The notes below the pieces were generated by a model. That model was given only the letters and a program-made list of their open reading frames with translations. It was not told where the DNA came from and made no database searches. This document shows positions 50,380 through 64,000 of a stretch of 64,000 bases of DNA, piece after piece. The position numbers and the translations under genes are program-made. The DNA comes from Candidatus Harpocratesius repetitus (lineage in GTDB: Archaea; Asgardarchaeota; Lokiarchaeia; Sigyniarchaeales; Promethearchaeaceae): positions 3,473,450 to 3,537,449 of the forward strand of contig JAIZWK010000001.1 in NCBI GenBank assembly GCA_021498095.1, in the 5' to 3' direction. Each line of letters opens with the position of its first letter. Position 1 is the stretch's first letter.

Positions 50380-51183
50380 ATGGCTCAAGAAATCTCTCCA
50401 GAATTTAAAGAAAAACTATTTAATTGGCTAAAAAAACAAAGAATCATAAACATGGACATAAAAATCTTAATTACAGCCTTCACCCATCCATCATATAAAG
50501 GAGTCTTTCCAGAAGTGGAAGATTATGAAAGACTAGAATTCTTAGGAGATGCGGTTTTGGATCTGGTTTCTGCAGAAGATTTAATCAAACACAGCTCTGC
50601 GAATGAAGGAGTATTAACAGAACGTCGAAAACAATTAGTAAATAATGAAAATCTTTCCCAAATTTTTGATAGATTAAAGATATCATCTTTTATTCGAACT
50701 GCACCTCATTACAAGCCTTCTATTAAGGATAAAGCAAATTTTATTGAAGCCTTTTTTGGAGCTCTCTTTTTAGAGCACCGCTATGAATATTGCGTTATAG
50801 TTTGGCGACAATTTCAAGAAAAAATGGGTAAAATAAAAAAGAAGATTTATCATGCTCCATTATCTCCTGAAGATGAACAAAATAAGGAAGAATTGAAACA
50901 ATTTTATCGCTCAATTGGATTAACCCCAAAAAATGCAAAATCAATGTTACAAGAACTTAACCAAAAACAAGGATTAGATTTACCCAATTATGAATTAATT
51001 GAACATTTTGGACCTGACCATAATCCAACTTTTCGAGTAAAAGTATCAGGTATTTTTTTCACAGGACCCCCAAAATGGACAAGATCAGCAATAGGAGAAG
51101 GTAAGAGTAAAAAAATTGCCGAAATTAGAGCTGCAGAGAAATTATGTGATCAAATCTATTTAGATTACATCCCGTTTGATTAA
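50380..51183 (+). CDS. rnc: Ribonuclease III with C-terminal dsRNA-binding domain
   Basis: 267 residues. RNase III domain (about 10-150): 'YERLEFLGDAVLDL' gives Glu50, Glu53 and Asp57, and 'DKANFIEAFFGALFLE' gives Glu123. The spacing from Asp57 to residue 120 (63) equals that between Asp44 and Asp107 in the Aquifex enzyme, but residue 120 is Asn, so one metal-ligand aspartate is replaced. dsRBD (about 188-262): 'NAKSMLQELNQKQG', 'GPDHNPTFRVKV' and 'GEGKSKKIAEIRAAEKL'. It would cut or bind dsRNA. Canonical RNase III is rare in archaea. It lies directly upstream of an Argonaute gene on the same strand, so a role in making or handling guide RNA is plausible (inference). Confidence 0.9.
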   Translation: MAQEISPEFKEKLFNWLKKQRIINMDIKILITAFTHPSYKGVFPEVEDYERLEFLGDAVLDLVSAEDLIKHSSANEGVLTERRKQLVNNENLSQIFDRLKISSFIRTAPHYKPSIKDKANFIEAFFGALFLEHRYEYCVIVWRQFQEKMGKIKKKIYHAPLSPEDEQNKEELKQFYRSIGLTPKNAKSMLQELNQKQGLDLPNYELIEHFGPDHNPTFRVKVSGIFFTGPPKWTRSAIGEGKSKKIAEIRAAEKLCDQIYLDYIPFD

Positions 51184-51510
51184 GAATAGAAATCAATGAA
51201 AGTGAAAAAAATAAAAAGGAAAATTTTTTATTAATATAATAAGATCTCACGGAAAATGAACCGGAAAGTATCTGAAGGTAAATTGACCGCGAAGACTGTT
51301 ATATTATTTAATTTATTCATAAGATGGTGCAAAATATAGAAATTTTGCATAAATTATGGATAAATTAAATATTATCTGTGTTCGCATTCATTGCTAGTAT
51401 CTCCAGATGTTTTCCAGTTTATTTTACGAGAATTACTCTAGGTCATATTAGGATTATCTAAGAGAATTCTCTATTTTCCTGTGAGATTTTGATAAAAAAG
51501 TGGTATTGAT
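51184..51510. other. Spacer between RNase III and Argonaute, 327 bp
   Basis: No ORF is visible. Elements that may drive Argonaute are TATATTATTTAATTTATTC (51299 on) and ATTATGGATAAATTAAATA (51353 on). Imperfect short inverted repeats (e.g. GCAAAATATAGAAATTTTGC, 51329-51348, arms GCAAAAT/ATTTTGC) could form a hairpin. Whether the two genes share a transcript cannot be judged. Confidence 0.35.
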
Positions 51511-53964
51511 ATGTCAAAATCTCAAAATAAAGGAAGAAAATCAAATGATGCACCTTTAGCATCCCCCTGCTGTCCACAGAAAAAGAAAATAGATCTTGAA
51601 ATGAATCTTTTTCCTGTGAAGATTTCCAATCTTAAAATCAGTATATATTCATGGTTAATTTTTCCAAAAATCGATAATTATAAAGTACAAAGAAATATTC
51701 TTGAAATTGCTTTAAGTGAAGAAGCATTATACGAATACATCATTCAAAAAAACAAGATCTATCAAAAAAAAAGGCATCCAAATATAAAAAGAGTTGTGCT
51801 TTTTCAGAATAAAGAATTTCAAATTGAAATAAATCACCTTGAAACGGTTTATCTTTTAGATAATCCAACACTTCAAAACGAAATTTTTGGAAGTATTTGC
51901 CAAACTGTGGGATTCGAGCAAATAGGACATAATTACTATTATTCAGCAGAAAGACAATCCTCACAACTCACACAATCTACAAAAGAATCATTAAAAAGGA
52001 TATTTCCAGCAATTGAAATAGATGGAGGCAAATACTATTTAAAACAAGGACTAACAACTGCGATTCATTCCACCAAGAAAAATTTTTCGATAGATCAAGG
52101 AAAAAATGCTATTTCAAATGTTGTTGAATTAGAGCAAACATCAAAACTCATTCAAAAAAAGAATTTATTAGAAATAATAATGGATTTGAATAGAAAGGTT
52201 AAAGATCATCACAAGATTGAAAATTTACTCATTGGTTCAAGATTTATTACGCACTACAATAACAGAATATATACAATTCATGGAATTGCTTGGAATAAAG
52301 ATCCTACTTCTACATTTCAAATTCGCTCAAAGTTGCATCAAAATTTAGAAATCACTTTTGAAGAATACTACAAAAAGAATTATCAATTAAAAATTTCAGA
52401 TCTCCATCAACCTTTAATTATTTATTATCCAATGTCTTCTCAAAAGAGTGCTACTTCATCAGGATCTCAAGATATACTCTACTTTTTACCAGAGTTTTGT
52501 CATCTTTTTGGACTATCAAACCTTGATGCTGATAATTTCAGAATTCGGCAAGAAATCACCCGAAATACCCAAATGTCACCTTCAGATAGATATAGAAAAC
52601 TCAAAACATTTGTAGAGAACCAAGATATTCTTGAATTTTTTAAAGTATGGGGTTTAGATATCGATTCACGGATGATTTCTATGTCTGGAATAAAACTACC
52701 AAGTCTAGAGATACAGACTCAAACAGGTGTTTTTCCAATCAATTTTGAACAATCAAATTGGCTTTCATTATTAAATCGCTCGCAAGTAATTGATGCTCCT
52801 GAATTAAAAAAGTGGATGATATTATATCCAAAAAAATCTATGTCTTTGCAAGAAGCAAGAAAATTTAGCAATGATTTTCAAAAAATTGCCCAACAAATGG
52901 GAATGGTATGTCGACCACCTCAATTACAGGGAGTTTTTGATATGACAAAGTTTCTGGCAATATTAAAGAAAAATCCTTCTCAACATCATATAAATTCAAT
53001 CCAATTAATTCTCACAATTACCCCTAATAGGAACAAGACATGTTATCGGAAAATTAAACAGCTGTGTTATCGAGATCTGGGAATTGCCAATCAAAATGTT
53101 GTGCTTAAAAATTTAAGAGATCAAAAAAGAAGAATGCCAATAATCCGAAATTTAGTAAGGCAAATTATTTGCAAGGTTCCAAATTTTAATACAAAATATG
53201 GCGGGGCTTTATGGAAAATCAAAAATAATTCCATCCCTGACAAAACTTTAATTGTTGGAATTGATGTTTGGCATGGCCGTCCCGGAATAGACAAATCTAT
53301 TGCCGGCATCGTCTTTTCAACTGATAAAGGCTTACATTATACAGCAAATTATACAATAACTCCAAGAAAAGGACTGGAATTCATCCACAATTTAGGAAAA
53401 ATCATAATTACACAACTACAGAATCATTATAACGCAACAAGACAATACTTTGAAAATATATTAATTTTTCGCGATGGAGTAGGAAACACCCAGTATAACA
53501 AGATTTTACAAGAAGAATTCAAGTCTATTCAACAAGAACTAACCAATTCATCCATTTTTAGTGAAAAACATCCAAAAATTGCAATAATCTTGGTGAATAA
53601 ACGAATAAATCGCCGGCTATTTCATAAAAACAAACAAGGACAGATATTGAACCCCAAACCCGGAACTTTTATAGAAGATCAATATATAAAATCAGAATTT
53701 TCTAATTATTATTTAGTACCCCACTTTTCTCGTTTTGGAACAACCCGACCGATTCATATTTCGGTAATTTATAACAATACAAAATACGTTAATTTCCAAT
53801 TTGTTGAAATTGCAAATATTTTATGTCATTTGAATTACAATTGGGCAGGAACAGTTCGCATACCAGCATCTGTGGAATATGCCCATAAAGTTGCCGACTT
53901 CATCGGATCAAATCAAATTACATCAATTGCACCAGAATTACTACAAACTCAATTCTATTTGTAA
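51511..53964 (+). CDS. Long PIWI/Argonaute protein with apparent catalytic DEDH tetrad
   Basis: 817 residues, sized and ordered like a full long Argonaute (N, PAZ-like, MID, PIWI). PIWI region: 'LIVGIDVWHGRPG' (Asp585), 'GLEFIHNLGKI' (Glu623, glutamate finger), 'LIFRDGVGNTQY' (Asp655) and 'IPASVEYAHKVADF' (His792), so all four slicer residues appear present. 'YLVPHFSRFGTTRPIHISVI' and 'PASVEYAH' match eukaryotic AGO/PIWI (GT-x-R-P-x-H, PAPVYYAH) far better than bacterial pAgos. Asgard PIWI-like Argonautes are known: HrAgo1 of Ca. Harpocratesius repetitus performs RNA-guided RNA cleavage, and this protein may be it or a close relative (from memory, not checked). The helicase operon begins 50 nt downstream. 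Confidence 0.95.
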   Translation: MSKSQNKGRKSNDAPLASPCCPQKKKIDLEMNLFPVKISNLKISIYSWLIFPKIDNYKVQRNILEIALSEEALYEYIIQKNKIYQKKRHPNIKRVVLFQNKEFQIEINHLETVYLLDNPTLQNEIFGSICQTVGFEQIGHNYYYSAERQSSQLTQSTKESLKRIFPAIEIDGGKYYLKQGLTTAIHSTKKNFSIDQGKNAISNVVELEQTSKLIQKKNLLEIIMDLNRKVKDHHKIENLLIGSRFITHYNNRIYTIHGIAWNKDPTSTFQIRSKLHQNLEITFEEYYKKNYQLKISDLHQPLIIYYPMSSQKSATSSGSQDILYFLPEFCHLFGLSNLDADNFRIRQEITRNTQMSPSDRYRKLKTFVENQDILEFFKVWGLDIDSRMISMSGIKLPSLEIQTQTGVFPINFEQSNWLSLLNRSQVIDAPELKKWMILYPKKSMSLQEARKFSNDFQKIAQQMGMVCRPPQLQGVFDMTKFLAILKKNPSQHHINSIQLILTITPNRNKTCYRKIKQLCYRDLGIANQNVVLKNLRDQKRRMPIIRNLVRQIICKVPNFNTKYGGALWKIKNNSIPDKTLIVGIDVWHGRPGIDKSIAGIVFSTDKGLHYTANYTITPRKGLEFIHNLGKIIITQLQNHYNATRQYFENILIFRDGVGNTQYNKILQEEFKSIQQELTNSSIFSEKHPKIAIILVNKRINRRLFHKNKQGQILNPKPGTFIEDQYIKSEFSNYYLVPHFSRFGTTRPIHISVIYNNTKYVNFQFVEIANILCHLNYNWAGTVRIPASVEYAHKVADFIGSNQITSIAPELLQTQFYL

Positions 53965-54014
53965 ACTTTTTTTAATGTTATAATAAAAATATAAATATGA
54001 AAAAATGATTAAAA

Positions 54015-57000
54015 ATGTCTCTGAAAAATTATCTAAACTCGAATAATCTTTATTATGCAAGCATTTATGGACAAAAACTAAAAAAATTAACTTATCTTTT
54101 TCAAAATATTCGGGATTCTTTTCGCCCTTATATCCATTTTTTGGACAGAGCGATTGAAGCAGAGAAAGAAAGAGAGATTTCAGCCCTTTTTAAAATAGTC
54201 AAAGACGATTTTACGGTTTCTTTTAAACCAATCACAAAAAAGTTGAAGATATTATCAGAAGGTTTTCTCTACTGCGAAGTAGAACAAGATTGGGTTCAAT
54301 TATTAAATTTTGAAGACATTAACAATAATTATGAAGAATTTGATTGGTCTAATTGTGAGAATTTTGAAATTAGTTATATGTCCGATGATGGAGCCAAAAC
54401 AATAAAAATCTCTAAGAAGAATATTATAGTTTTTGAAGACGACGGAAAAATAGATTCTATATATCTTAAGTTCCCAATGAATTATAATGATTCTTATGAT
54501 TTCTATTATAAACGCGTGAGATTGCAGCTTGAAAAAGTCATTGAAGATCTTGATCTCATTGAAATAACACATCATGAATATGCACTTGATGTAATTGACA
54601 TTGAGCATGCAGATTCTCAAAATAGTGTTGTAAAAATCCACTATAGCGGAGTAATCACGCCGGATGATATTGAACATCTAAGAATTAATGGATTACCGCT
54701 TCAAAACCCAAGATTCAAACAGATTTCAGATCTTGGGGATGTTTCAAAGATATTCATTGAAAACAATACTGGAAAAAGACAATTACAAATTCTTAGGAAA
54801 GATTTTAAAAAGAACTGTGTATTTGTAGAATATTTCCGTGAAAAAGGCGATTATTCAATCTTTGGAGAGGATCAAGAACAGAATCGAATAGAAGTGAAAG
54901 AACTTAGATTTGAACCTATTAAAAAAATCCAATTTTTAAATAGAGATATTGAAACGTTATTCTCTCCTCAATTAATTAATGAAAATCGAAGAGGATTAAA
55001 TGAATACGCCGTAGATATTAAACCATTACCTAAGAACGGTGAAAAGGTTCGAGCAGATAATGGAAACGAATATGAATGTATTATAAATAAAAAAAAAAAA
55101 AGAACTGAATTGAAGCTGAAATTATTAGAAGAAAACGAAGAAGACATGCATGAAATCTCAGAAAAATCACCACTAGATTATTTTTTTGAGGATGATGTGA
55201 ATGAAGTAATGGGTCATAAGATTTTTGAAATAGCAAAAAATAAAAAACTCATTTGGACAATTATTAGAAAAAATCGGGAAGAACGAACAATTTCAATCAA
55301 GATCAGCAGCAAAAAAAATTATAAAAATGTAAAATATAATCTAGAACGAATGAGTGAAAAGAATTATCCTCTTTATCTCAATCGAAATGTTTATCAATTA
55401 AAAATGGAAAGAAATTTCATCAATAGGTTAATGAAAAAACCACTAGATGATTATCTCCCCCTTCTCCGATTAGGGGAATCTATTAAAGCAACTAAATATG
55501 AATGGGATATTTTTAACCCTTTGGATGAAAAAAAAATTGAATGGGAAATCCTTACGGAAAATGAGCGAGAAGGAACGGAAAAACAAAGACTATTTGTAGA
55601 AAAAGCATTGAATACTCCTGATTTTGCTTTCCTCGAAGGTCCTCCTGGATCTGGAAAAACAACAGCAATTATAGAATTAATTTTTCAATTAATAAAACAG
55701 AATAAAAAAATACTCTTAGCAGCTTCAACTCATGTTGCCATTGACAATGTTCTTGAAAGAATCAAAAAGTACAAAACAGAATGGTTTAATAGGATTTTAC
55801 CACTCAGGATAGGAGATAGACACAATATTTCTTCAAAAATCGTAGAATTCCAAATTGATAATCTATTAAAAACGCACAAAAATGGCTTAGATGGATTGAA
55901 TTCCCTTATTTTAGATGCTTCTAATTTGGTTTGTGGAACAACCATAGGGATTTTAAAACATCCTTGGTTTGATCGAAAGAAGAATCGTAATGTAGATCGA
56001 AAAGTCTTTCCAATGTTTGATTATTTAATTATAGATGAATCCAGTAAAACTACTTTCCAAGATTTTATTATACCTGCATTGTATGCAAAAAGATGGATTT
56101 TAGTTGGTGATATTAAGCAATTAGCACCCTATGCTGAAAATGACTATTTGAAAAGGTATTTTGAAAAATTAACAGATTATAATAATAAAAATATATTTAA
56201 TTCTCATGCTCAAAAGGCAAATTATTTGATATTTTTGTTACTACGGCGCTTTTGCGATAAGTCTTCAAAAAAATTTTCAAAAAAATTAAAATTTTCTGAG
56301 AGAATCTGTTTTCCTACTGATGAATCTACTATAAAAGCGTTTTTAGAAGAAATAAATAAAAGATATGAGCAAGATATATCAAAGGATCAAATTTTATCTC
56401 AAAAATTTCCTATTATCACAATAATAGTAAAGGATCGAACTGCTTTAGCAAATGTCAATCCAAAAATAATTGAGATCACTGAATCTGATTTAAAAACCAA
56501 TATTCAAAAATCTCTTCTATTAGTAGCATCAGATCTTATTTTAATTGATTGGGATATATATAATAGAAAGGAAAATATTATTCCACCTCATTTTTTTGTC
56601 TTAAATCATCCTAACTGGAAAAATAGTCAACAAGCTTTTCGATGGAGATATATCATCGACATTAATAAAAACAAAAATAATAATTCAAAACTTTTGATCG
56701 AAAATTTTGAGCGTATTAATCAAGATCTGTCTGAAAAGAACTGGGCTTCTGAGATCTCTTGGCGATTAATTAGATCCTATGAATTAAGAGCACTTCCAGA
56801 TAATGAAACTTTGAAAAGATATTATAACGATTTATCTTTTCTCCTCCCGCGAAAAGATGATATCTCTCGTTTTATTATAAATGCTTGGAGTATTTCGCTA
56901 CCATCAATTTTAGAGTCGTTACAATCTGGCATTGGCGAAAAATATAGAGGACATATTGAAACAATTTTAAAAACGGGATTTCCAAATGAATTATTTTTTC

Positions 57001-57845
57001 AAAGGCATGTGAAACTAGAATATCAATTTCGTATGCACAGAGACATTTCAAAATTTCCACGAAAAGAATTCTATGACTCAAAAGCTCTTCAAGATAGCAA
57101 ATTAACGGATAGAACATGGCAATATTTTAGATATAGAAGAAATCGAACTTATGAAAGCCGCTTTACTTGGATAGATCTCTATTGGAAAGCAAAAAGGAAT
57201 AGAAATGAAAAGGAGGCTAATCGATTAATCAAAGAATTAAAAGAGTTTCTTAAATGGGCAGAATCAAATCCAATGAATAATGAAGGAGAAAATTGGACTG
57301 TTGCCTGTATAACATTTTATAAAGGGCAAGAAAGACTCATTCGTGAAAAACTTAGACAATTAACTGGTCTTACTAACAGAACGAATATCTTTTACTATGG
57401 AAATGTGGATATTCTCCTATATACTGTAGATAAAATTCAAGGAAGGGAAGCGGATATTATATTTTTATCTTTGGTTCGCAATGCACGATTTTATAATGGC
57501 AAATATCAAGGGGGAAATTTAGGATTTATGGATAATCCAAACCGTTTAAACGTTGCCTTAACACGAGCCAAATATCAACTTGTTATATTAGGCCATATCC
57601 TAAATTTTCAAGATCAAAACAACAGTATCCATTTGAAGAATTTAACGAAAGCAGTTACAATAGAAAAACGTGAAACTCCAAACCGTCGACAAAATAGAGA
57701 AAATTGGATTAATAGCAAATCAAATCAAAGAAAAAATCAACAATTCATACCATTTTCTGAAAAATCCCGTCGAAAACGGAAAAATTCTAAGAAAAATCAT
57801 TCAAAAATTAATAAAAATACACGTAATCAATGGAGAAGAAGATAA
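54015..57845 (+). CDS. UPF1/DNA2-type superfamily 1 helicase
   Basis: 1276 residues. The N-terminal half (about 1-520) has no recognisable domain. SF1B core: Q-motif region 'GTEKQRLFVEKALN', Walker A 'LEGPPGSGKTTAI' (about 542-549), Ia 'AASTHVAIDNVLERI', Walker B 'LIIDESSKTTFQD' (about 674), III 'WILVGDIKQLAPY', IV 'EYQFRMHRDISKFP', V 'DKIQGREADIIFLSLVRN' and VI 'RLNVALTRAKYQLVILG'. These place it with UPF1/SETX/DNA2 (AAA_11/AAA_12), which act on RNA or R-loops. A large insertion (about 720-1000) separates motifs III and IV, and the C-terminal tail is very basic. It probably forms one transcript with Argonaute (50 nt gap) and the next gene (0 nt). Confidence 0.88.
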   Translation: MSLKNYLNSNNLYYASIYGQKLKKLTYLFQNIRDSFRPYIHFLDRAIEAEKEREISALFKIVKDDFTVSFKPITKKLKILSEGFLYCEVEQDWVQLLNFEDINNNYEEFDWSNCENFEISYMSDDGAKTIKISKKNIIVFEDDGKIDSIYLKFPMNYNDSYDFYYKRVRLQLEKVIEDLDLIEITHHEYALDVIDIEHADSQNSVVKIHYSGVITPDDIEHLRINGLPLQNPRFKQISDLGDVSKIFIENNTGKRQLQILRKDFKKNCVFVEYFREKGDYSIFGEDQEQNRIEVKELRFEPIKKIQFLNRDIETLFSPQLINENRRGLNEYAVDIKPLPKNGEKVRADNGNEYECIINKKKKRTELKLKLLEENEEDMHEISEKSPLDYFFEDDVNEVMGHKIFEIAKNKKLIWTIIRKNREERTISIKISSKKNYKNVKYNLERMSEKNYPLYLNRNVYQLKMERNFINRLMKKPLDDYLPLLRLGESIKATKYEWDIFNPLDEKKIEWEILTENEREGTEKQRLFVEKALNTPDFAFLEGPPGSGKTTAIIELIFQLIKQNKKILLAASTHVAIDNVLERIKKYKTEWFNRILPLRIGDRHNISSKIVEFQIDNLLKTHKNGLDGLNSLILDASNLVCGTTIGILKHPWFDRKKNRNVDRKVFPMFDYLIIDESSKTTFQDFIIPALYAKRWILVGDIKQLAPYAENDYLKRYFEKLTDYNNKNIFNSHAQKANYLIFLLLRRFCDKSSKKFSKKLKFSERICFPTDESTIKAFLEEINKRYEQDISKDQILSQKFPIITIIVKDRTALANVNPKIIEITESDLKTNIQKSLLLVASDLILIDWDIYNRKENIIPPHFFVLNHPNWKNSQQAFRWRYIIDINKNKNNNSKLLIENFERINQDLSEKNWASEISWRLIRSYELRALPDNETLKRYYNDLSFLLPRKDDISRFIINAWSISLPSILESLQSGIGEKYRGHIETILKTGFPNELFFQRHVKLEYQFRMHRDISKFPRKEFYDSKALQDSKLTDRTWQYFRYRRNRTYESRFTWIDLYWKAKRNRNEKEANRLIKELKEFLKWAESNPMNNEGENWTVACITFYKGQERLIREKLRQLTGLTNRTNIFYYGNVDILLYTVDKIQGREADIIFLSLVRNARFYNGKYQGGNLGFMDNPNRLNVALTRAKYQLVILGHILNFQDQNNSIHLKNLTKAVTIEKRETPNRRQNRENWINSKSNQRKNQQFIPFSEKSRRKRKNSKKNHSKINKNTRNQWRRR

Positions 57846-58973
57846 ATGAAAATAATTTTAAAACGAAAAGTATTAATTCAAGTATTTGAAATAATTGCAG
57901 AAATGCAGTTTGAAGAAACAAAACCTGCTTATCAAAAAATATTATCAATTGGGAAAACAGACAAAATTACGGCAGATTCAATTTTATTCTTTTTTTCTGA
58001 ATATAATGAGAATTTGCAAAAGATTCTTGCAAATAATATTATTCGCTTCTTTAAAGTTGAAAAATTTATTGACGATTCAGGGAATCTTACAGTAATTGGG
58101 AATAATATTGTTGAATTAGGTAAAGTACCCATTAAAGAAAAAGGTAAATATCTGATCTGGTGTTTGGAAGATCCACTTTGGGGCAAATGTTGCATTCATT
58201 TCACACGGATGGATTATGATTATAATTCTCATAAAGTTGAATATGGATTTCCTTTTAGCAATATCGAAAACCGTTCTTTTATTGACTTTATTCGAAATAA
58301 CCATTTCGTTATTTCAAGGTTTATTTCAAAGGATGAAAAAATTCCTTTTAAAATACAAAGCAATTATAATTCAAAGCTTAATTTATTATGGGAAATTGAT
58401 TTCAATCTTGAAGATAAAAAAGTTGAGAAATCTTTTATCAAATTGAATGGAAAAATCTTAGAAGAAGTCAAAAAAAGTAAAAAAGAAAAAGAAATTGAAC
58501 CACAAGAAAAAGAATTTAATATTATTAATATTAATTCTTTGATTTCAACAATTTTCAAAAATGCTTCATTAGAATGGGATAATTCAATTATTGGAGTGAA
58601 AATAGGATTAAATGAGATAGTAAACGAGAACTCCTATGATTCTTTTAGAATGGATTTTCAATTCAACAATCAAACTATTTTAGATTTTGGAGATTTTTTA
58701 GATATCTCATGTGAAAACGTCCCCATCATCCCAAAAGATGAAAATGTAGCAAAAGAGTGGCTTATTTATAATCTATCAAAGATTTGCAAGAATAAATTCC
58801 TGTGGTCAGATGAATATTCAAAACATCTTTCAGAATTTCAATCAAAACGCGAAATTTTGCATTGTTTTCCAAGATTGAATATTGATCAAGAAGAATTAGC
58901 ACAAATTTATAAAAATCGTAATCAAATGGAGAGATTCTGGCATCTACAAGCACCTCTCGATTTAACATTTTAA
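57846..58973 (+). CDS. Unknown protein, helicase-linked
   Basis: 375 residues, ATG immediately after the helicase TAA, so translation is coupled. The N-terminal part (about 1-95) is helical with a winged-helix feel ('ITADSILFFFSEYNENLQ', 'DSGNLTVIGNNIVELG'). The middle contains beta strands, and the C-terminal part 'EWLIYNLSKICKNKFLWSDE' is helical. No known family. Because of its position it may be an adaptor of the helicase and PLD-like proteins. Confidence 0.7.
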   Translation: MKIILKRKVLIQVFEIIAEMQFEETKPAYQKILSIGKTDKITADSILFFFSEYNENLQKILANNIIRFFKVEKFIDDSGNLTVIGNNIVELGKVPIKEKGKYLIWCLEDPLWGKCCIHFTRMDYDYNSHKVEYGFPFSNIENRSFIDFIRNNHFVISRFISKDEKIPFKIQSNYNSKLNLLWEIDFNLEDKKVEKSFIKLNGKILEEVKKSKKEKEIEPQEKEFNIININSLISTIFKNASLEWDNSIIGVKIGLNEIVNENSYDSFRMDFQFNNQTILDFGDFLDISCENVPIIPKDENVAKEWLIYNLSKICKNKFLWSDEYSKHLSEFQSKREILHCFPRLNIDQEELAQIYKNRNQMERFWHLQAPLDLTF

Positions 58974-58986
58974 GGAGAAGATAGTA

Positions 58987-61275
58987 ATGAGTGAAAAAAA
59001 CGATTATATTAAACCCGTACAACTTTCTTCATCAAAGTCCTATATGAATGAAATCTATGAAGATTTTTGGATGGAACTGCATTCAGAAATTGACAGTTAT
59101 TCAGTAAAGCTATCAAATTGCTCGATCCTTCTACATACATTTGATAGATTTCGTCAAAAAATCCGCGAAGCAAAAAAATATGTCATCATTTTAACAGATC
59201 GTTTAGATTCGGAATATTTAATCGATGATTTGCTTGAAGCTTCAGAAAATGGGGCAAGGATTTATATTTTGATAGAAGAGCCGACAGAAATCCCAAATGA
59301 AAAAAAAAAGAATTTTATCCATAATATTAAGAAACTAATCAATAAAGCATTAATTAGGATAATCCCAAGAACTCAAGTTCATTTTTTATTAATTGATCCT
59401 GATGATAAAGATAATTCTTTTGGGTTTATTACAAATTCTAGACTTCTTTTTAACTCAGATTTATTTGATCTGGGTAAATTTTTATTACAATTATCTAGAA
59501 CTCAAACTATAGAAGTATTTGATTTATTCAAATTGATATTTTGGACATATTCTGAGTTTCAAATTATACACGAAGAAGATATTGAATTTCCAAAGAAAAT
59601 AGAACCATTATATAACCGTAAATCTAATTTAAAGTGGAAATACCTTTTTTATAAATTAAATAAAGATGAGGATTTTATTAGTCAGAACCTTGCTGAAAAC
59701 ATTCAAAAAGCAAATAGAGAAATTGAAGGTATTTTCGAACATTTTGATCTTGATAATCAAATTATAGATGCCTTCAACTCAAAAATCGATTCTATTGATA
59801 TTCACTTTAACACAACTTTTTATGGATGGAGACCAAATCATTTTTCGCAATCTTCTCGATTGAATGTTATAACTCCGATCAAAAATGATCTTTCAATTCC
59901 GATTTTAAACGGAATTTGCATAGATAAAAAGGTAGGTATCTTATTTATATCTGATATTCCAATGGATGAAAGGGAAGACTACTTCTTACAAATCGCACTT
60001 AAATTAACTGCACCTCAAATGAAGCAATTTCAAGAATTTCTTTCATACATTAAAAAAATATCAAATTACCGCTATTTTTACCAGGAAAAACTCGAAAATA
60101 TTAATCATAATATAATCAAAATTGATGATAATGGGGAGATTTTACCATTTGAGTTAGATGATAACTATAAAAAACATATTGATGACATCAACTGTAAAAT
60201 AATTGATGAGTTTTTAAAAAAGAAAGAATTGAAGGAACGTGATTTCTCAAAATATCAAGAACGGTATAAGAAAAAGATTGACTTTGAATGGAGGGTAATA
60301 CCTCCTAGATTACCTGATAAATCAGAAAAAGACGATTTATATCGGCAATGGGATCAATTTTATCAATCATATGAAACATATATCACAGATCTTAAAGGAT
60401 TGATTCAATATCTGATCAATTATTATAATAATAATAAGTTGATACTTATCCAACAAATTATCACTGGATATCGTCAAAAAATTGAAGAATTTTCTGATGA
60501 ATTAAAAGAATTTAGTGAAATAGACATTGATCAAATTGAAATTGAAAAGTTAAGAGAAAAAATTAATCGTTTGCATGAAATTCACCAAAAACTAGTAGAT
60601 CAATATAGAGATATTTTAACCAAATCAGATAATTGTAAAAGAATCGATGAATTGAAAGAAAAAATTGAAATAATAAAACATGATTACACCGAAATTGAAA
60701 ACAAATTAAAAAAATATATAGAAAAAATAAAAAAGGAAAAAGAAAACTTGAATAAGAATCAAAATAGCTTAAATTCTTTAAAGGAAGCTGCAAAGAAATT
60801 AACGAAAAAGAAAAAAAAGGATCTTTATAATGATATTGATATTCAAAAGGGAATTATTAAGAAAATCAAAAATGAAATTGAAGATCTAGAAAAAGAACGA
60901 AATAAATTAGAAAAAAGAAAGATGCATTTTGAAAATTCAATCAAAAATAATCAAAAAGAAATTGAAAGAATTAAAAGAACAATTGAAAATGAAGGTTTTA
61001 AAGATAAGAAAGAAATAACAACACATTCCTTTGATGAATTTATGAGAAAAGGGAGAAAACAAAACAAAAAAATAAAAAAAGAAATTGAAATGAATTTACC
61101 TGCTATCCACAACAATGTAACCGTACCTTCGGAAAAGATTCCTGAAGTTGGCATTTTATATCGGTCCAAAAAAGAGCGTTTTATTGTCATACAGAAATAT
61201 TCAGAAATTGCTAAAGCAAAGGAAATTGAAAAAAAATATAAATGTAAAATCGTAGTAAACGGAGGAGGGAAATAG
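58987..61275 (+). CDS. Degenerate phospholipase-D-like protein with long coiled coil
   Basis: 762 residues. Residues about 50-205 resemble a PLD-type domain: 'DRFRQKIREAKKYVIIL', 'LLEASENGARIYILIE' and 'VHFLLIDPD...FGFITNS'. The H-x-K-x4-D box reads H-F-L-L-I-D, so the catalytic Lys is absent. Residues about 490-680 form a long Lys/Glu-rich coiled coil, followed by a short C-terminal domain ('YRSKKERFIVIQKY'). It looks like a structural or sensing subunit rather than an active phosphodiesterase. AAGGAG 8 nt before the ATG supports the start. The TAG stop is immediately followed in the same frame by the radical SAM gene. Confidence 0.65.
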   Translation: MSEKNDYIKPVQLSSSKSYMNEIYEDFWMELHSEIDSYSVKLSNCSILLHTFDRFRQKIREAKKYVIILTDRLDSEYLIDDLLEASENGARIYILIEEPTEIPNEKKKNFIHNIKKLINKALIRIIPRTQVHFLLIDPDDKDNSFGFITNSRLLFNSDLFDLGKFLLQLSRTQTIEVFDLFKLIFWTYSEFQIIHEEDIEFPKKIEPLYNRKSNLKWKYLFYKLNKDEDFISQNLAENIQKANREIEGIFEHFDLDNQIIDAFNSKIDSIDIHFNTTFYGWRPNHFSQSSRLNVITPIKNDLSIPILNGICIDKKVGILFISDIPMDEREDYFLQIALKLTAPQMKQFQEFLSYIKKISNYRYFYQEKLENINHNIIKIDDNGEILPFELDDNYKKHIDDINCKIIDEFLKKKELKERDFSKYQERYKKKIDFEWRVIPPRLPDKSEKDDLYRQWDQFYQSYETYITDLKGLIQYLINYYNNNKLILIQQIITGYRQKIEEFSDELKEFSEIDIDQIEIEKLREKINRLHEIHQKLVDQYRDILTKSDNCKRIDELKEKIEIIKHDYTEIENKLKKYIEKIKKEKENLNKNQNSLNSLKEAAKKLTKKKKKDLYNDIDIQKGIIKKIKNEIEDLEKERNKLEKRKMHFENSIKNNQKEIERIKRTIENEGFKDKKEITTHSFDEFMRKGRKQNKKIKKEIEMNLPAIHNNVTVPSEKIPEVGILYRSKKERFIVIQKYSEIAKAKEIEKKYKCKIVVNGGGK

Positions 61276-61887
61276 ATTATAAAAAATCCATACGAAACAG
61301 AAGTTATAGGAGATTTTCTAAATATTAATCATATCTTAGACAGATCAACCTCAAACGGTCCAGGTCTAAGAACAGTCATTTGGCTTCAAGGGTGCCTTAA
61401 GCATTGTGAAGGATGTAATAATAGAAATATGTGGCCTTTTAAAATAAAACAAAAGATTGGAGTTAAAGAATTAATAGATCGAATTAGAAAGAATAAAGAA
61501 ACGTTTGAAATCGAAGGAATTACATTGAGTGGAGGGGAACCACTTCTTCAATGGAGAATCTTGATTCCTTTTTTGCAGGAAATAAAAAAAATGGAACTTT
61601 CAGTAATATGTTTTTCAGGGTATACATGGGAAGAAATAAATTGTGCTAAATTTAAACTTGTACTCCCACTAATTGATATTTTGGTTTCAGGTCCATTTAT
61701 GCAAAAAGAAAAAGGAAACTTACCTTTAAGAGGCTCAAATAATCAAGAAATTCATTTTTTAACTAATAGATATGATAACTCCGATATTAAAGAGCAAAGT
61801 ACTGAAATCTTGATCGATACTGATGGTAAAATTACAATCACAGGATTTCCATCAAAAGATATTTTAGATTTTTTTTCTAATTATTAA
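61276..61887 (+). CDS. Radical SAM protein (NrdG/QueE-like) with non-AUG start
   Basis: About 203 residues, open directly after the TAG at 61273-61275. Family features: 'STSNGPGLRTVIWLQGC', the cluster motif C-x3-C-x2-C ('GCLKHCEGCNN'), 'ITLSGGEPLLQW' (SAM-binding GGE) and 'DILVSGPFMQKEKG', as in anaerobic ribonucleotide reductase activases. No NrdD is in the window. There is no ATG, GTG or TTG before the cysteine motif; the first ATG (61429) would remove it. GGAGGAGGG at 61260-61268 is a very strong Shine-Dalgarno at the right distance from AUU 61276 or AUA 61279. Probably an activase or sulfur/cluster-dependent partner of the next AAA+ protein. Confidence 0.82.
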   Translation: MIKNPYETEVIGDFLNINHILDRSTSNGPGLRTVIWLQGCLKHCEGCNNRNMWPFKIKQKIGVKELIDRIRKNKETFEIEGITLSGGEPLLQWRILIPFLQEIKKMELSVICFSGYTWEEINCAKFKLVLPLIDILVSGPFMQKEKGNLPLRGSNNQEIHFLTNRYDNSDIKEQSTEILIDTDGKITITGFPSKDILDFFSNY

Positions 61888-61912: not shown

Positions 61913-63520
61913 ATGGAAATGAAAATGGTAGAAAAAGAATTGAACGAAATTCGCACATTAATCAGAGCAGGTGCAACAGTAATTCAAGTTGTTTCATACG
62001 AACAACAGCGTGTTCAAGGTTTTGTCGATGCAATTGCCAAAGAATTAGGTTTAAATTGGTTTGATTGGAATTATGTGAAAGGTTTGCAAAAAAGCAATGA
62101 TGGCGTTTTAGAAGCTTTTAAGCATAATTTAACTGATCCAATCGACTTATTGGAAGAAATTCTAACTGACGAATCTGAAAATGGATTGTATATTTGCCAC
62201 GATTTTCATCCATTTATGAATGATAATCCTAAAATAATTCGGTTATTAAGGGAAATAATAACAACGCCATTTGAACACAAGAAAGCATTAATCTTATGCC
62301 AACCAATAAAAATAATTCCAAACGAATTACTAAAGGAAATGCCTATAGTTGAGGTGGAATTACCATCAAGTGAAATTTTAGAAGTGATTGCAGATGTTGT
62401 AAAGGAAAAATTCAATCTCGATAATCAATCCTTTGATAAATCAGAAGGGTTAATCAATGCAGCTCTTGGATTAACCACAATGGAAGCACAGTTAGCATTT
62501 TCAAAAGCAATTGTCGAAACTAACCAATTAAATGAAGAATCAATTAATTATATAATTAAAGAAAAGGAAAACATTATTAAAAAGAAAGGTACTTTAGAAT
62601 ATTTCCATCCAAATGACGATTTTGAAAGCATTGGTGGATTAAATGTATTAAAAGAATGGTTACGAAAACGTGGGAAGGCTTTTAAAAAAGGGGCACAAGA
62701 ATATGGGTTGGATAAACCTAGAGGTGTATTATTATTAGGAATTCCTGGTTGTGGTAAAAGTTTAAGCGCAAAAGCAATAGCAAATGTTTGGAATTTTCCC
62801 TTACTTAGATTTGATTTGGGTAAAGTGTTTTCAGGGATCGTAGGTGAATCAGAACAAAACATCAGAAATGCACTAGATATTGCTAAGGCATTAGCACCTT
62901 GTGTATTATGGATTGATGAAATCGAGAAAGGCTTGTCAGGTGTGAAGAGTTCTAATGAAACAGATTCAGGAGTAAGTGCAAGAATATTTGGTACATTTTT
63001 AACTTGGATGCAAGAAAAGAAAGAACCTGTTTTTGTGGTTGCCACAGCCAACGATATTAGTCAATTACCACCAGAATTATTGAGAAAAGGTCGATTTGAT
63101 GAAATTTTCTTCGTAGATCTTCCCACTTTATCCGAACGCGAAGAAATATTCAGAATCCATATTAAAAAGAAAAAGCGAAATCCTGAAAATTTTAATATTC
63201 AATATTTTGCAAAAATAACTGTAGGATTTACAGGCTCAGAAATTGAGGAAATTGTAAAAGAAGCTCTTTTCCGGGGTTTTGATGAAAACCGTCAGATCCA
63301 AGATAAAGACTTCATAGGAGCAATTAAAGATACAATTCCCTTATCAGTGACTATGGGTACTGATCTCGGTGATTTACGTAAATGGGCGAAATACCATGCA
63401 AAACTCGCAAGTAAAGATGAATTTAATGAAGATTTAAGCGAGATAACCCCAAAAGAAGATATACCAAAATTAAAGCAAGCTAGTATTAATCCCTTCATAA
63501 AACGGAATGAGACGAAATAA
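61913..63520 (+). CDS. Ycf46-like AAA+ ATPase
   Basis: 535 residues. N-terminal domain (about 1-225) as in Ycf46: 'IRAGATVIQVVSYEQQRV', 'NGLYICHDFHPFM' and 'KALILCQPIKIIP'. AAA+ module: 'LLLGIPGCGKSLSAKAIA' (Walker A, about 276), 'FSGIVGESEQNIRNALDIA', Walker B 'VLWIDEIEKGL' (about 333), sensor 1 'VVATANDIS', arginine finger 'LLRKGRFDEIFFVDLP', and 'GFTGSEIEEIVKEAL' (sensor 2 region). Ycf46 was named for a plastid/cyanobacterial gene. DUF1257 (Ycf35-like) and DUF2997 proteins often accompany it, and both follow here. The first codons offer ATGs at 61913, 61919 and 61925. Confidence 0.88.
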   Translation: MEMKMVEKELNEIRTLIRAGATVIQVVSYEQQRVQGFVDAIAKELGLNWFDWNYVKGLQKSNDGVLEAFKHNLTDPIDLLEEILTDESENGLYICHDFHPFMNDNPKIIRLLREIITTPFEHKKALILCQPIKIIPNELLKEMPIVEVELPSSEILEVIADVVKEKFNLDNQSFDKSEGLINAALGLTTMEAQLAFSKAIVETNQLNEESINYIIKEKENIIKKKGTLEYFHPNDDFESIGGLNVLKEWLRKRGKAFKKGAQEYGLDKPRGVLLLGIPGCGKSLSAKAIANVWNFPLLRFDLGKVFSGIVGESEQNIRNALDIAKALAPCVLWIDEIEKGLSGVKSSNETDSGVSARIFGTFLTWMQEKKEPVFVVATANDISQLPPELLRKGRFDEIFFVDLPTLSEREEIFRIHIKKKKRNPENFNIQYFAKITVGFTGSEIEEIVKEALFRGFDENRQIQDKDFIGAIKDTIPLSVTMGTDLGDLRKWAKYHAKLASKDEFNEDLSEITPKEDIPKLKQASINPFIKRNETK

Positions 63521-63521
63521 A

Positions 63522-63719
63522 ATGAGTGATGAAAAAATTATTATTATGATTGATGAAGATGGAAAAATTCAAGCAGATGCAATCGGATTTAAGGGCAATA
63601 TCTGCCTTAAGGAATTAGAAAAATTACTGGAAGGACTTCCTGAAATTGAAAAATTGGATAAAAAACCAGATTTTTATCAAAAAAATGTGAAATACAAACA
63701 CAAAACTATACTAAAATGA
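63522..63719 (+). CDS. DUF2997 small protein
   Basis: 65 residues: 'IIIMIDEDGKIQADAIGFKG', then 'CLKELEKLL' and a basic end with 'KPDFYQKN'. This is the DUF2997 pattern (I-x-x-D-x-x-G-x-x-x-x-x-x-G-F-x-G-x-x-C). It starts 1 nt after the AAA+ stop and precedes the DUF1257 gene by 13 nt. Function unknown; always small and linked to Ycf46-like ATPases in the clusters I know of. Confidence 0.75.
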   Translation: MSDEKIIIMIDEDGKIQADAIGFKGNICLKELEKLLEGLPEIEKLDKKPDFYQKNVKYKHKTILK

Positions 63720-63732
63720 TGGTGAGAATGAT

Positions 63733-64000
63733 ATGAGTTCCTTAATAACCCTTCGACTGCCGTTTTTTGATTTTGAGTGTCTAGAAAAAGCGATTGAGAA
63801 ATCTGGACTTAAAATCATTCAAAAAACGAAAGATATCTTGCTTTCTAATGGAATTTTATTTCAAAATACTAATATTGGATATATTGCCCAAGTAAATAAT
63901 GTTCAAAAAGAAATAATAAATGCAATTCAAACAGAATATGAAAAATTCTATCAAGAAAAAGTTAAAGCTTTAAGAGAAGCACAGAGAAAACTAGAATATC
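63733..64000 (+). CDS. DUF1257 (Ycf35-like) protein, partial at the right edge
   Basis: The first 89 residues are visible and run off the window: 'SSLITLRLPFFDFECLEKAI', 'GYIAQVNNVQKE' and 'YEKFYQEKVKALREAQRKL'. Strand-helix layout and context (AAA+ Ycf46, DUF2997) fit DUF1257, named for plastid Ycf35. GGTGAG before the ATG supports the start. Confidence 0.7.
   Translation, partial: MSSLITLRLPFFDFECLEKAIEKSGLKIIQKTKDILLSNGILFQNTNIGYIAQVNNVQKEIINAIQTEYEKFYQEKVKALREAQRKLEY

Follow-up and report, generated by a model that had tools for sequence, protein, structure and literature searches.

The window analysed here is a 64,000-nt stretch of DNA, bases 3473450-3537449 of the single-contig 4.36 Mb genome of the Asgard archaeon Candidatus Harpocratesius repetitus, in which the gene for the Argonaute HrAgo1 lies between genes for a ribonuclease III (RNase III) and a superfamily 1 (SF1) helicase. 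We found that these three genes open a nine-gene array that recurs, whole or in part, in other Asgard families, two of which have a different Argonaute in the same slot. The array, its recurrence and the Argonaute exchange are new, while HrAgo1 and its flanking RNase III and helicase were known. We lean, at slightly better than even confidence, towards reading the array as an accessory Asgard defence operon of modular build, in which an RNase III-Argonaute pair is joined to an SF1 helicase module. Its genes are:

50380-51183, plus strand: RNase III, 267 aa, one RNase III domain (PF00636, 3e-19) and one double-stranded RNA-binding domain (dsRBD; PF00035, 4e-13); proposed guide maker
51511-53964, plus strand: HrAgo1, PIWI-clade Argonaute with a DEDH tetrad, 817 aa (817/817 to PDB 8r3z)
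54015-57845, plus strand: SF1 UPF1/MkoA-like helicase, 1276 aa (AAA_12, 3e-37; PADLOC MkoA, 2e-80)
57846-58973, plus strand: ORF375, uncharacterised putative partner protein of the helicase (homologues aligned from 14 further Asgard loci)
58987-61275, plus strand: phospholipase D (PLD)-fold protein, predicted pseudo-nuclease, 762 aa, long coiled coil, HxK lost (PLDc_2, 1e-5)
61276-61887, plus strand: NrdG-like radical SAM protein (NrdG, 2e-32)
61913-63520, plus strand: AAA+ ATPase with a CDC48/FtsH-like AAA domain (PF00004, 7e-32)
63507-63719, plus strand: small DUF2997 protein, 70 aa (PF11211, 2e-7)
63733-64000, continuing past the window to ~64308, plus strand: conserved coiled-coil-like protein, 191 aa (L047:3183-3758)

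The first-pass annotation had described a cluster of three genes. All three open reading frames (ORFs) are intact and correctly placed, as is the 50-nt spacing between Argonaute and helicase, but the array they belong to runs on to nine genes and ends at ~64.3 kb. The RNase III gene (rnc) is separated from the Argonaute gene (ago) by 327 bp and ago from the helicase gene by 50 bp; the gaps downstream of the helicase are, in order, 0, 13, 0, 25, -14 and 13 bp, with the 0-bp gap between the PLD and radical SAM genes presuming a non-ATG start for the latter. Judged by this spacing, ago through the 191-aa gene very likely form one operon. A promoter and terminator scan, run with a bacterial pattern, returned counts equal to those in shuffled sequence and was not used.

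To place the array in context we made a survey that covered Asgard genomes only, 228 in number. The full gene set was kept in an unrelated genome of another Asgard family (G033:C143, JAJRQD010000115.1) in the order rnc-ago-helicase-ORF-PLD-DUF2997-coiled coil-radical SAM-AAA, so that only the last four genes are reordered relative to the window. A contig from a third family (G031:C26, JALTMP010000026.1) carries ago-helicase-ORF-PLD and ends on both sides of these genes. In a fourth family (G054:C297) we observed helicase-ORF-PLD-radical SAM-AAA-DUF2997-coiled coil on a contig that stops just before the helicase, and the 32-aa end upstream of that helicase did not resemble an Argonaute C-terminus. 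The AAA ATPase (as syntenic homologues), the DUF2997 protein and the 191-aa protein thus all have counterparts in both G033 and G054. A peptide-pattern scan of all genomes recovered just two already known loci, the patterns being ill-suited to the purpose.

The Argonaute carries PAZ and Piwi Pfam domains and is 100% identical (817/817 residues) to HrAgo1 (PDB 8r3z), and the residues D585/E623/D655/H792 are the published HrAgo1 tetrad, so that the tentative identification made in the first-pass annotation was correct. HrAgo1 has been reported to use 15-25 nt RNA guides with a 5' phosphate and to cleave RNA in vitro. In a MID-PIWI tree built without AGO proteins, it grouped with the PIWI proteins of a sponge (EfPiwi) and the silkworm (Siwi) with support of 100/99, apart from other Asgard Argonautes; the protein therefore shows the PAZ and Piwi domains, the DEDX tetrad and the eukaryotic grouping of a PIWI-clade member. 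The G033 and G031 Argonautes share 47-49% identity with one another and only ~18-22% with HrAgo1. With relatives located in G177, G159, G035 and G054:C267, they form a separate, Asgard-specific group in the same tree, and a clade joining HrAgo1 to these Argonautes (agoN) was rejected (p-AU 7e-5). In the alignment both D residues of their tetrad are retained and its last position is also a D, and the glutamate finger is ambiguous. Since HrAgo1 occupies the window and members of this other clade occupy the equivalent position in G033 and G031, one operon slot accommodates two Argonaute clades. One search for relatives of HrAgo1 itself across the 228 genomes returned only weak matches, in two other genomes, and none was found on viral contigs or plasmids.

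The RNase III slot appears to have been filled more than once. The window RNase III, in which the motifs ERLEF and DKANFIEA are intact, clusters with another RNase III encoded by the same genome (69% identity; support 92/78) that lies in a different gene context (G000:C1:58534-58785; L115, L136), and with a homologue in G089 (97/90). The RNase III proteins of G033, G177 and G159 fall into another group (97/93), which includes two RNase III genes that do not adjoin an Argonaute. The slot has therefore been drawn from at least two lineages, and the pairing with Argonaute arose at least two times. The overlap between rnc and ago is 35 bp in G033 and 17 bp in G177, and the two genes are spaced by 12 bp in G159, making a single transcript likely in those loci; in G177 and G159 the pair occurs without the window-type helicase. 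A divergent arrangement occurs in G119, where the Argonaute is of a third type and faces, head to head, a CARF-like gene and an RNase III gene. Same-strand adjacent RNase III genes were present at 4 of ~22 Asgard Piwi loci, for which a rough binomial, with an assumed maximum of 3 RNase III genes per 3,500, puts the chance at 6e-8, or 7e-4 when the two independent lineages alone are counted. We regard this repeated pairing, which draws on two or more RNase III lineages, as the strongest argument that the two proteins may be functionally linked.

In G119 (L168; G119:C19:7000-26000) the gene faced by the Argonaute together with RNase III is Csa3/CARF-like, NERD-UvrD helicase and NurA genes follow, and an Ago-free helicase-ORF-PLD locus lies ~30 kb from the Argonaute on the same contig. 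The G159 pair (L079; G159:C109) is followed by a bpMoxR-vWA pair in a dense defence island, with genes for an SNF2 helicase, a DUF1156 methylase and DUF499 upstream. In G140 (L044:7333-13699) an Ago-free helicase-ORF-PLD locus with an intact HxK is directly followed by the gene for a divergent 366-aa RNase III-dsRBD-like protein.

The helicase (AAA_11/AAA_12) retains the motifs GPPGSGKT and IIDESS, and its closest solved structures are DNA2, UPF1, SMUBP2 and SEN1, which bears out its earlier placement in the UPF1/SETX/DNA2 group. As these are SF1 enzymes and the helicase of Dicer is of the SF2 type (PMC5303251), we rejected a Dicer-like helicase. Its best match in a library of defence systems was MkoA of Mokosh (PDLC03920, 2.1e-80), with the core matched in separate stretches; the match to the NCBIfam PLuB helicase model fell far under that model's cut-off. 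Matches at an E-value of 1e-30 or better occurred in 17 of the 228 genomes, and the contigs that bear them hold two kinds of locus, an Ago-free helicase-ORF375-PLD arrangement and the window-type order. The helicases of the window, G054, G033 and G031 form one clade (100/99), and a single origin of the Ago-linked form is therefore possible. In four Ago-free loci (L033, L038, L041 and L043) an unrelated, longer radical SAM gene lies upstream of the helicase.

ORF375 sits directly 3' of this helicase type at every locus whose contig covers that side. Its AlphaFold2 (AF2) model (pLDDT 78) had no fold match in the PDB, and no homologues were found on plasmids. The AF2 model of the next protein (mean pLDDT 71.5) still shows a PLD fold, with matches to Zucchini, NucT and the FAM83 PLD-like domain. 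The HxK motif is nevertheless lost from the PLD proteins of the window, G033, G031 and G054, being missing from both halves of the PLD domain, while HxKx4D is kept at 11 of the 11 Ago-free helicase-ORF-PLD loci examined. Judged by this loss, the window protein would be a catalytically dead pseudo-nuclease, and on the same ground we rejected a Zucchini-like nuclease role for it.

Presence of the locus varies even within the genus. The congeneric metagenome-assembled genome (MAG) G088 shares both flanks, at 44.0-49.9 kb of the window and, past the window end, at 64.7-74.1 kb, and gave no match to Ago, the helicase (at 1e-30) or RNase III, with the limits that it is 87% complete and that its contigs break off at the junction or close to it. 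By this comparison the Ago locus is accessory, because a close relative keeps both flanks without Ago, RNase III or a close helicase match.

At the distal end, the listed start of the radical SAM ORF (61429) proved too short: translation of 61240-61500 placed CxxxCxxC (GCLKHCEGC, an Fe-S cluster motif) in frame upstream, and the gene probably starts at an ATT or ATA right after the PLD stop, near 61276. A second cluster in the same genome (G000:C1, ~2536-2550 kb; L140, L142) adjoins HerA and NurA genes and comprises an RNase III-like gene without a dsRBD, a 189-aa protein, an NrdG-like radical SAM protein, an AAA ATPase, a 1028-aa protein with an actin/Hsp70-like motif, a 1327-aa SF1 helicase and a 1253-aa protein. 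We dropped it as an instance of the same system, its small RNase III-like gene having unrelated surroundings in both G033 and G035.

Gene content and order, conservation of the array, Argonaute exchange, the recruitment of RNase III on separate occasions and the missing PLD motif can be read directly from the sequences, and from them we propose how the operon might work. RNase III would dice double-stranded RNA, either foreign or structured, to yield short duplexes, and HrAgo1 would load one strand and cut matching RNA. Together with ORF375 and a scaffold formed by the pseudo-PLD protein, the UPF1-like helicase may bind and remodel the target or precursor RNA, RNase III and Argonaute having taken over the nuclease role of the helicase module; the radical SAM, AAA, DUF2997 and coiled-coil genes could form a regulatory or maturation module. 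A bolder version, which we put forward tentatively and as less likely than not, is that this is archaeal RNA interference (RNAi), in which a dedicated RNase III makes the guides for an exchangeable Argonaute and the SF1 helicase and dead PLD scaffold complete the effector, and that it was built by convergence, RNase III and Argonaute being paired more than once, and not as a forerunner of eukaryotic RNAi. It would then be a prokaryotic silencing pathway that both makes and uses its RNA guides. A search for an RNA-dependent RNA polymerase in the H. repetitus genome gave no match, nor did it give one in the control genomes.

Several observations weigh against the defence-operon reading. The 327-bp gap means that rnc may have its own transcript in the window, and related Argonautes occur without RNase III at G054:C267 and in G161. 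The ORF375 tree splits the Ago-linked loci instead of joining them into a single group. In G054 the helicase and PLD genes are broken by frameshifts and the Argonaute, if any, lies off the contig; more generally, the comparison loci are MAG contigs, several of which end at a critical gene. Activity data exist for HrAgo1 alone, the other genes being read from sequence.

The array might instead be two independent defence modules that lie side by side and share an island but not a mechanism, one pairing RNase III with Argonaute and the other a Mokosh-like unit of helicase, ORF375 and PLD protein. This would explain why RNase III-Ago occurs without this helicase in G177 and G159, why at least 11 loci have helicase-ORF-PLD and no Ago, and why the neighbours in G159 and G119 are other defence-type genes. 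We nevertheless think it rather unlikely, since the joined loci share tight order and spacing across families, their helicases form one clade and HxK is lost in the joined form only, a combination that suggests co-adaptation. It is more improbable still that the RNase III beside hrAgo1 is an ordinary housekeeping gene in accidental adjacency. RNase III is indeed present in 152 of the 228 genomes, the window copy is close to another copy in its own genome and 327 bp separate it from ago, but same-strand pairs in four genomes, drawn from two RNase III lineages and overlapping in two cases, together with the divergent arrangement in G119, are hard to reconcile with accident, and the window genome carries two further RNase III genes.

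The PIWI-clade Argonaute, UPF1-like SF1 helicase and Zucchini-matching PLD fold within one operon also invite comparison with primary biogenesis of PIWI-interacting RNAs (piRNAs), for which MOV10L1/Armitage and Zucchini provide the helicase/PLD model: the helicase would feed RNA to the PLD protein, which would cut guides for the Argonaute. We consider this very improbable, as both PLD halves lack HxK in all Ago-linked copies, a dedicated RNase III is present and the G033/G031 Argonaute falls outside the PIWI clade. The modular defence operon remains the reading that we prefer.

The earlier description of the window is correct as worded and largely known: the linkage of hrAgo1 to rnc and a helicase, which it had singled out for attention, was already reported by Bastiaanssen et al. 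2024 (PMC11217426). Its proposed phylogeny and synteny comparisons both came out in its favour, HrAgo1 grouping with animal PIWIs and not with other Asgard Argonautes, and the RNase III-Ago and Ago-helicase linkages both recurring in other Asgard genomes. It had listed Argonautes lacking either neighbour, and a grouping with bacterial Argonautes, as signs against a linked system; as a whole that picture did not emerge, yet some Argonautes do stand without RNase III. Its suggestion that the cluster lies close to the ancestry of eukaryotic RNAi fared worse. As a unit, the cluster does not resemble an ancestor handed down to eukaryotic RNAi, because its RNase III is a lineage-level paralogue of another in its own genome, its Argonaute differs between syntenic operons and its helicase is a UPF1-like SF1 enzyme, unlike the SF2 helicase of Dicer.

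It is commonly stated that prokaryotes lack enzymes dedicated to making Argonaute guides. The recurrent RNase III-Argonaute pairs in several Asgard lineages provide named loci for a direct test of guide making, and exchange of the Argonaute within a conserved operon suggests that the parts of eukaryotic RNAi came together as modules were mixed and were not handed down as a ready-made pathway.

Bastiaanssen et al. 2024 (PMC11217426) reported rnc and the helicase flanking hrAgo1, proposed them as guide generators for test and called the flanking domains Dicer-related; our analysis corrects the helicase from Dicer-like to SF1 UPF1/MkoA-like. That paper's main text makes no mention of a PLD-fold protein, a likeness to Mokosh or conservation of the array in other genomes, and its Fig. 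1c may show some of the genes downstream. The likeness to Mokosh lies in the helicase core, which matches MkoA at 2e-80, and in a PLD-fold protein two genes downstream. The window thus has the MkoA-type SF1 helicase of type I Mokosh and not its MkoB PLD nuclease with HxK: the window PLD protein has neither an MkoB match at E 0.01 nor HxK, ORF375 is interposed, and RNase III and Argonaute are linked. In the part of Leao et al. 2024 (PMC11291487) available, Mokosh, Argonaute in Asgards and the likeness of Mokosh to the piRNA pathway are discussed and are not joined in one locus. The haloarchaeal pAgo-AgaP system (APAP; PMC11442185) likewise pairs a catalytically active Argonaute from archaea with a partner of the PLD family, in some cases with a helicase nearby. 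APAP, however, needs AgaP catalysis, and an active PLD nuclease is what the window, G033, G031 and G054 appear to lack, HxK being lost in all four; in addition, the window has RNase III, and HrAgo1 cuts RNA and not DNA.

In Dicer a single protein carries an SF2 helicase, PAZ and a pair of RNase III domains, whereas the window encodes a separate one-domain RNase III and an SF1 helicase. From eukaryotic RNAi and piRNA pathways the array therefore differs in having no Dicer fusion, a PLD protein that is non-catalytic by motif, and genes that are exchanged between loci; of the piRNA primary biogenesis trio it has the PIWI protein and the SF1 helicase, and the motif of an active Zucchini-type PLD is absent. 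The likeness to these pathways is that a PIWI-clade Argonaute, an RNase III with a dsRBD, a UPF1-like SF1 helicase and a PLD fold all occur together in this one archaeal cluster.
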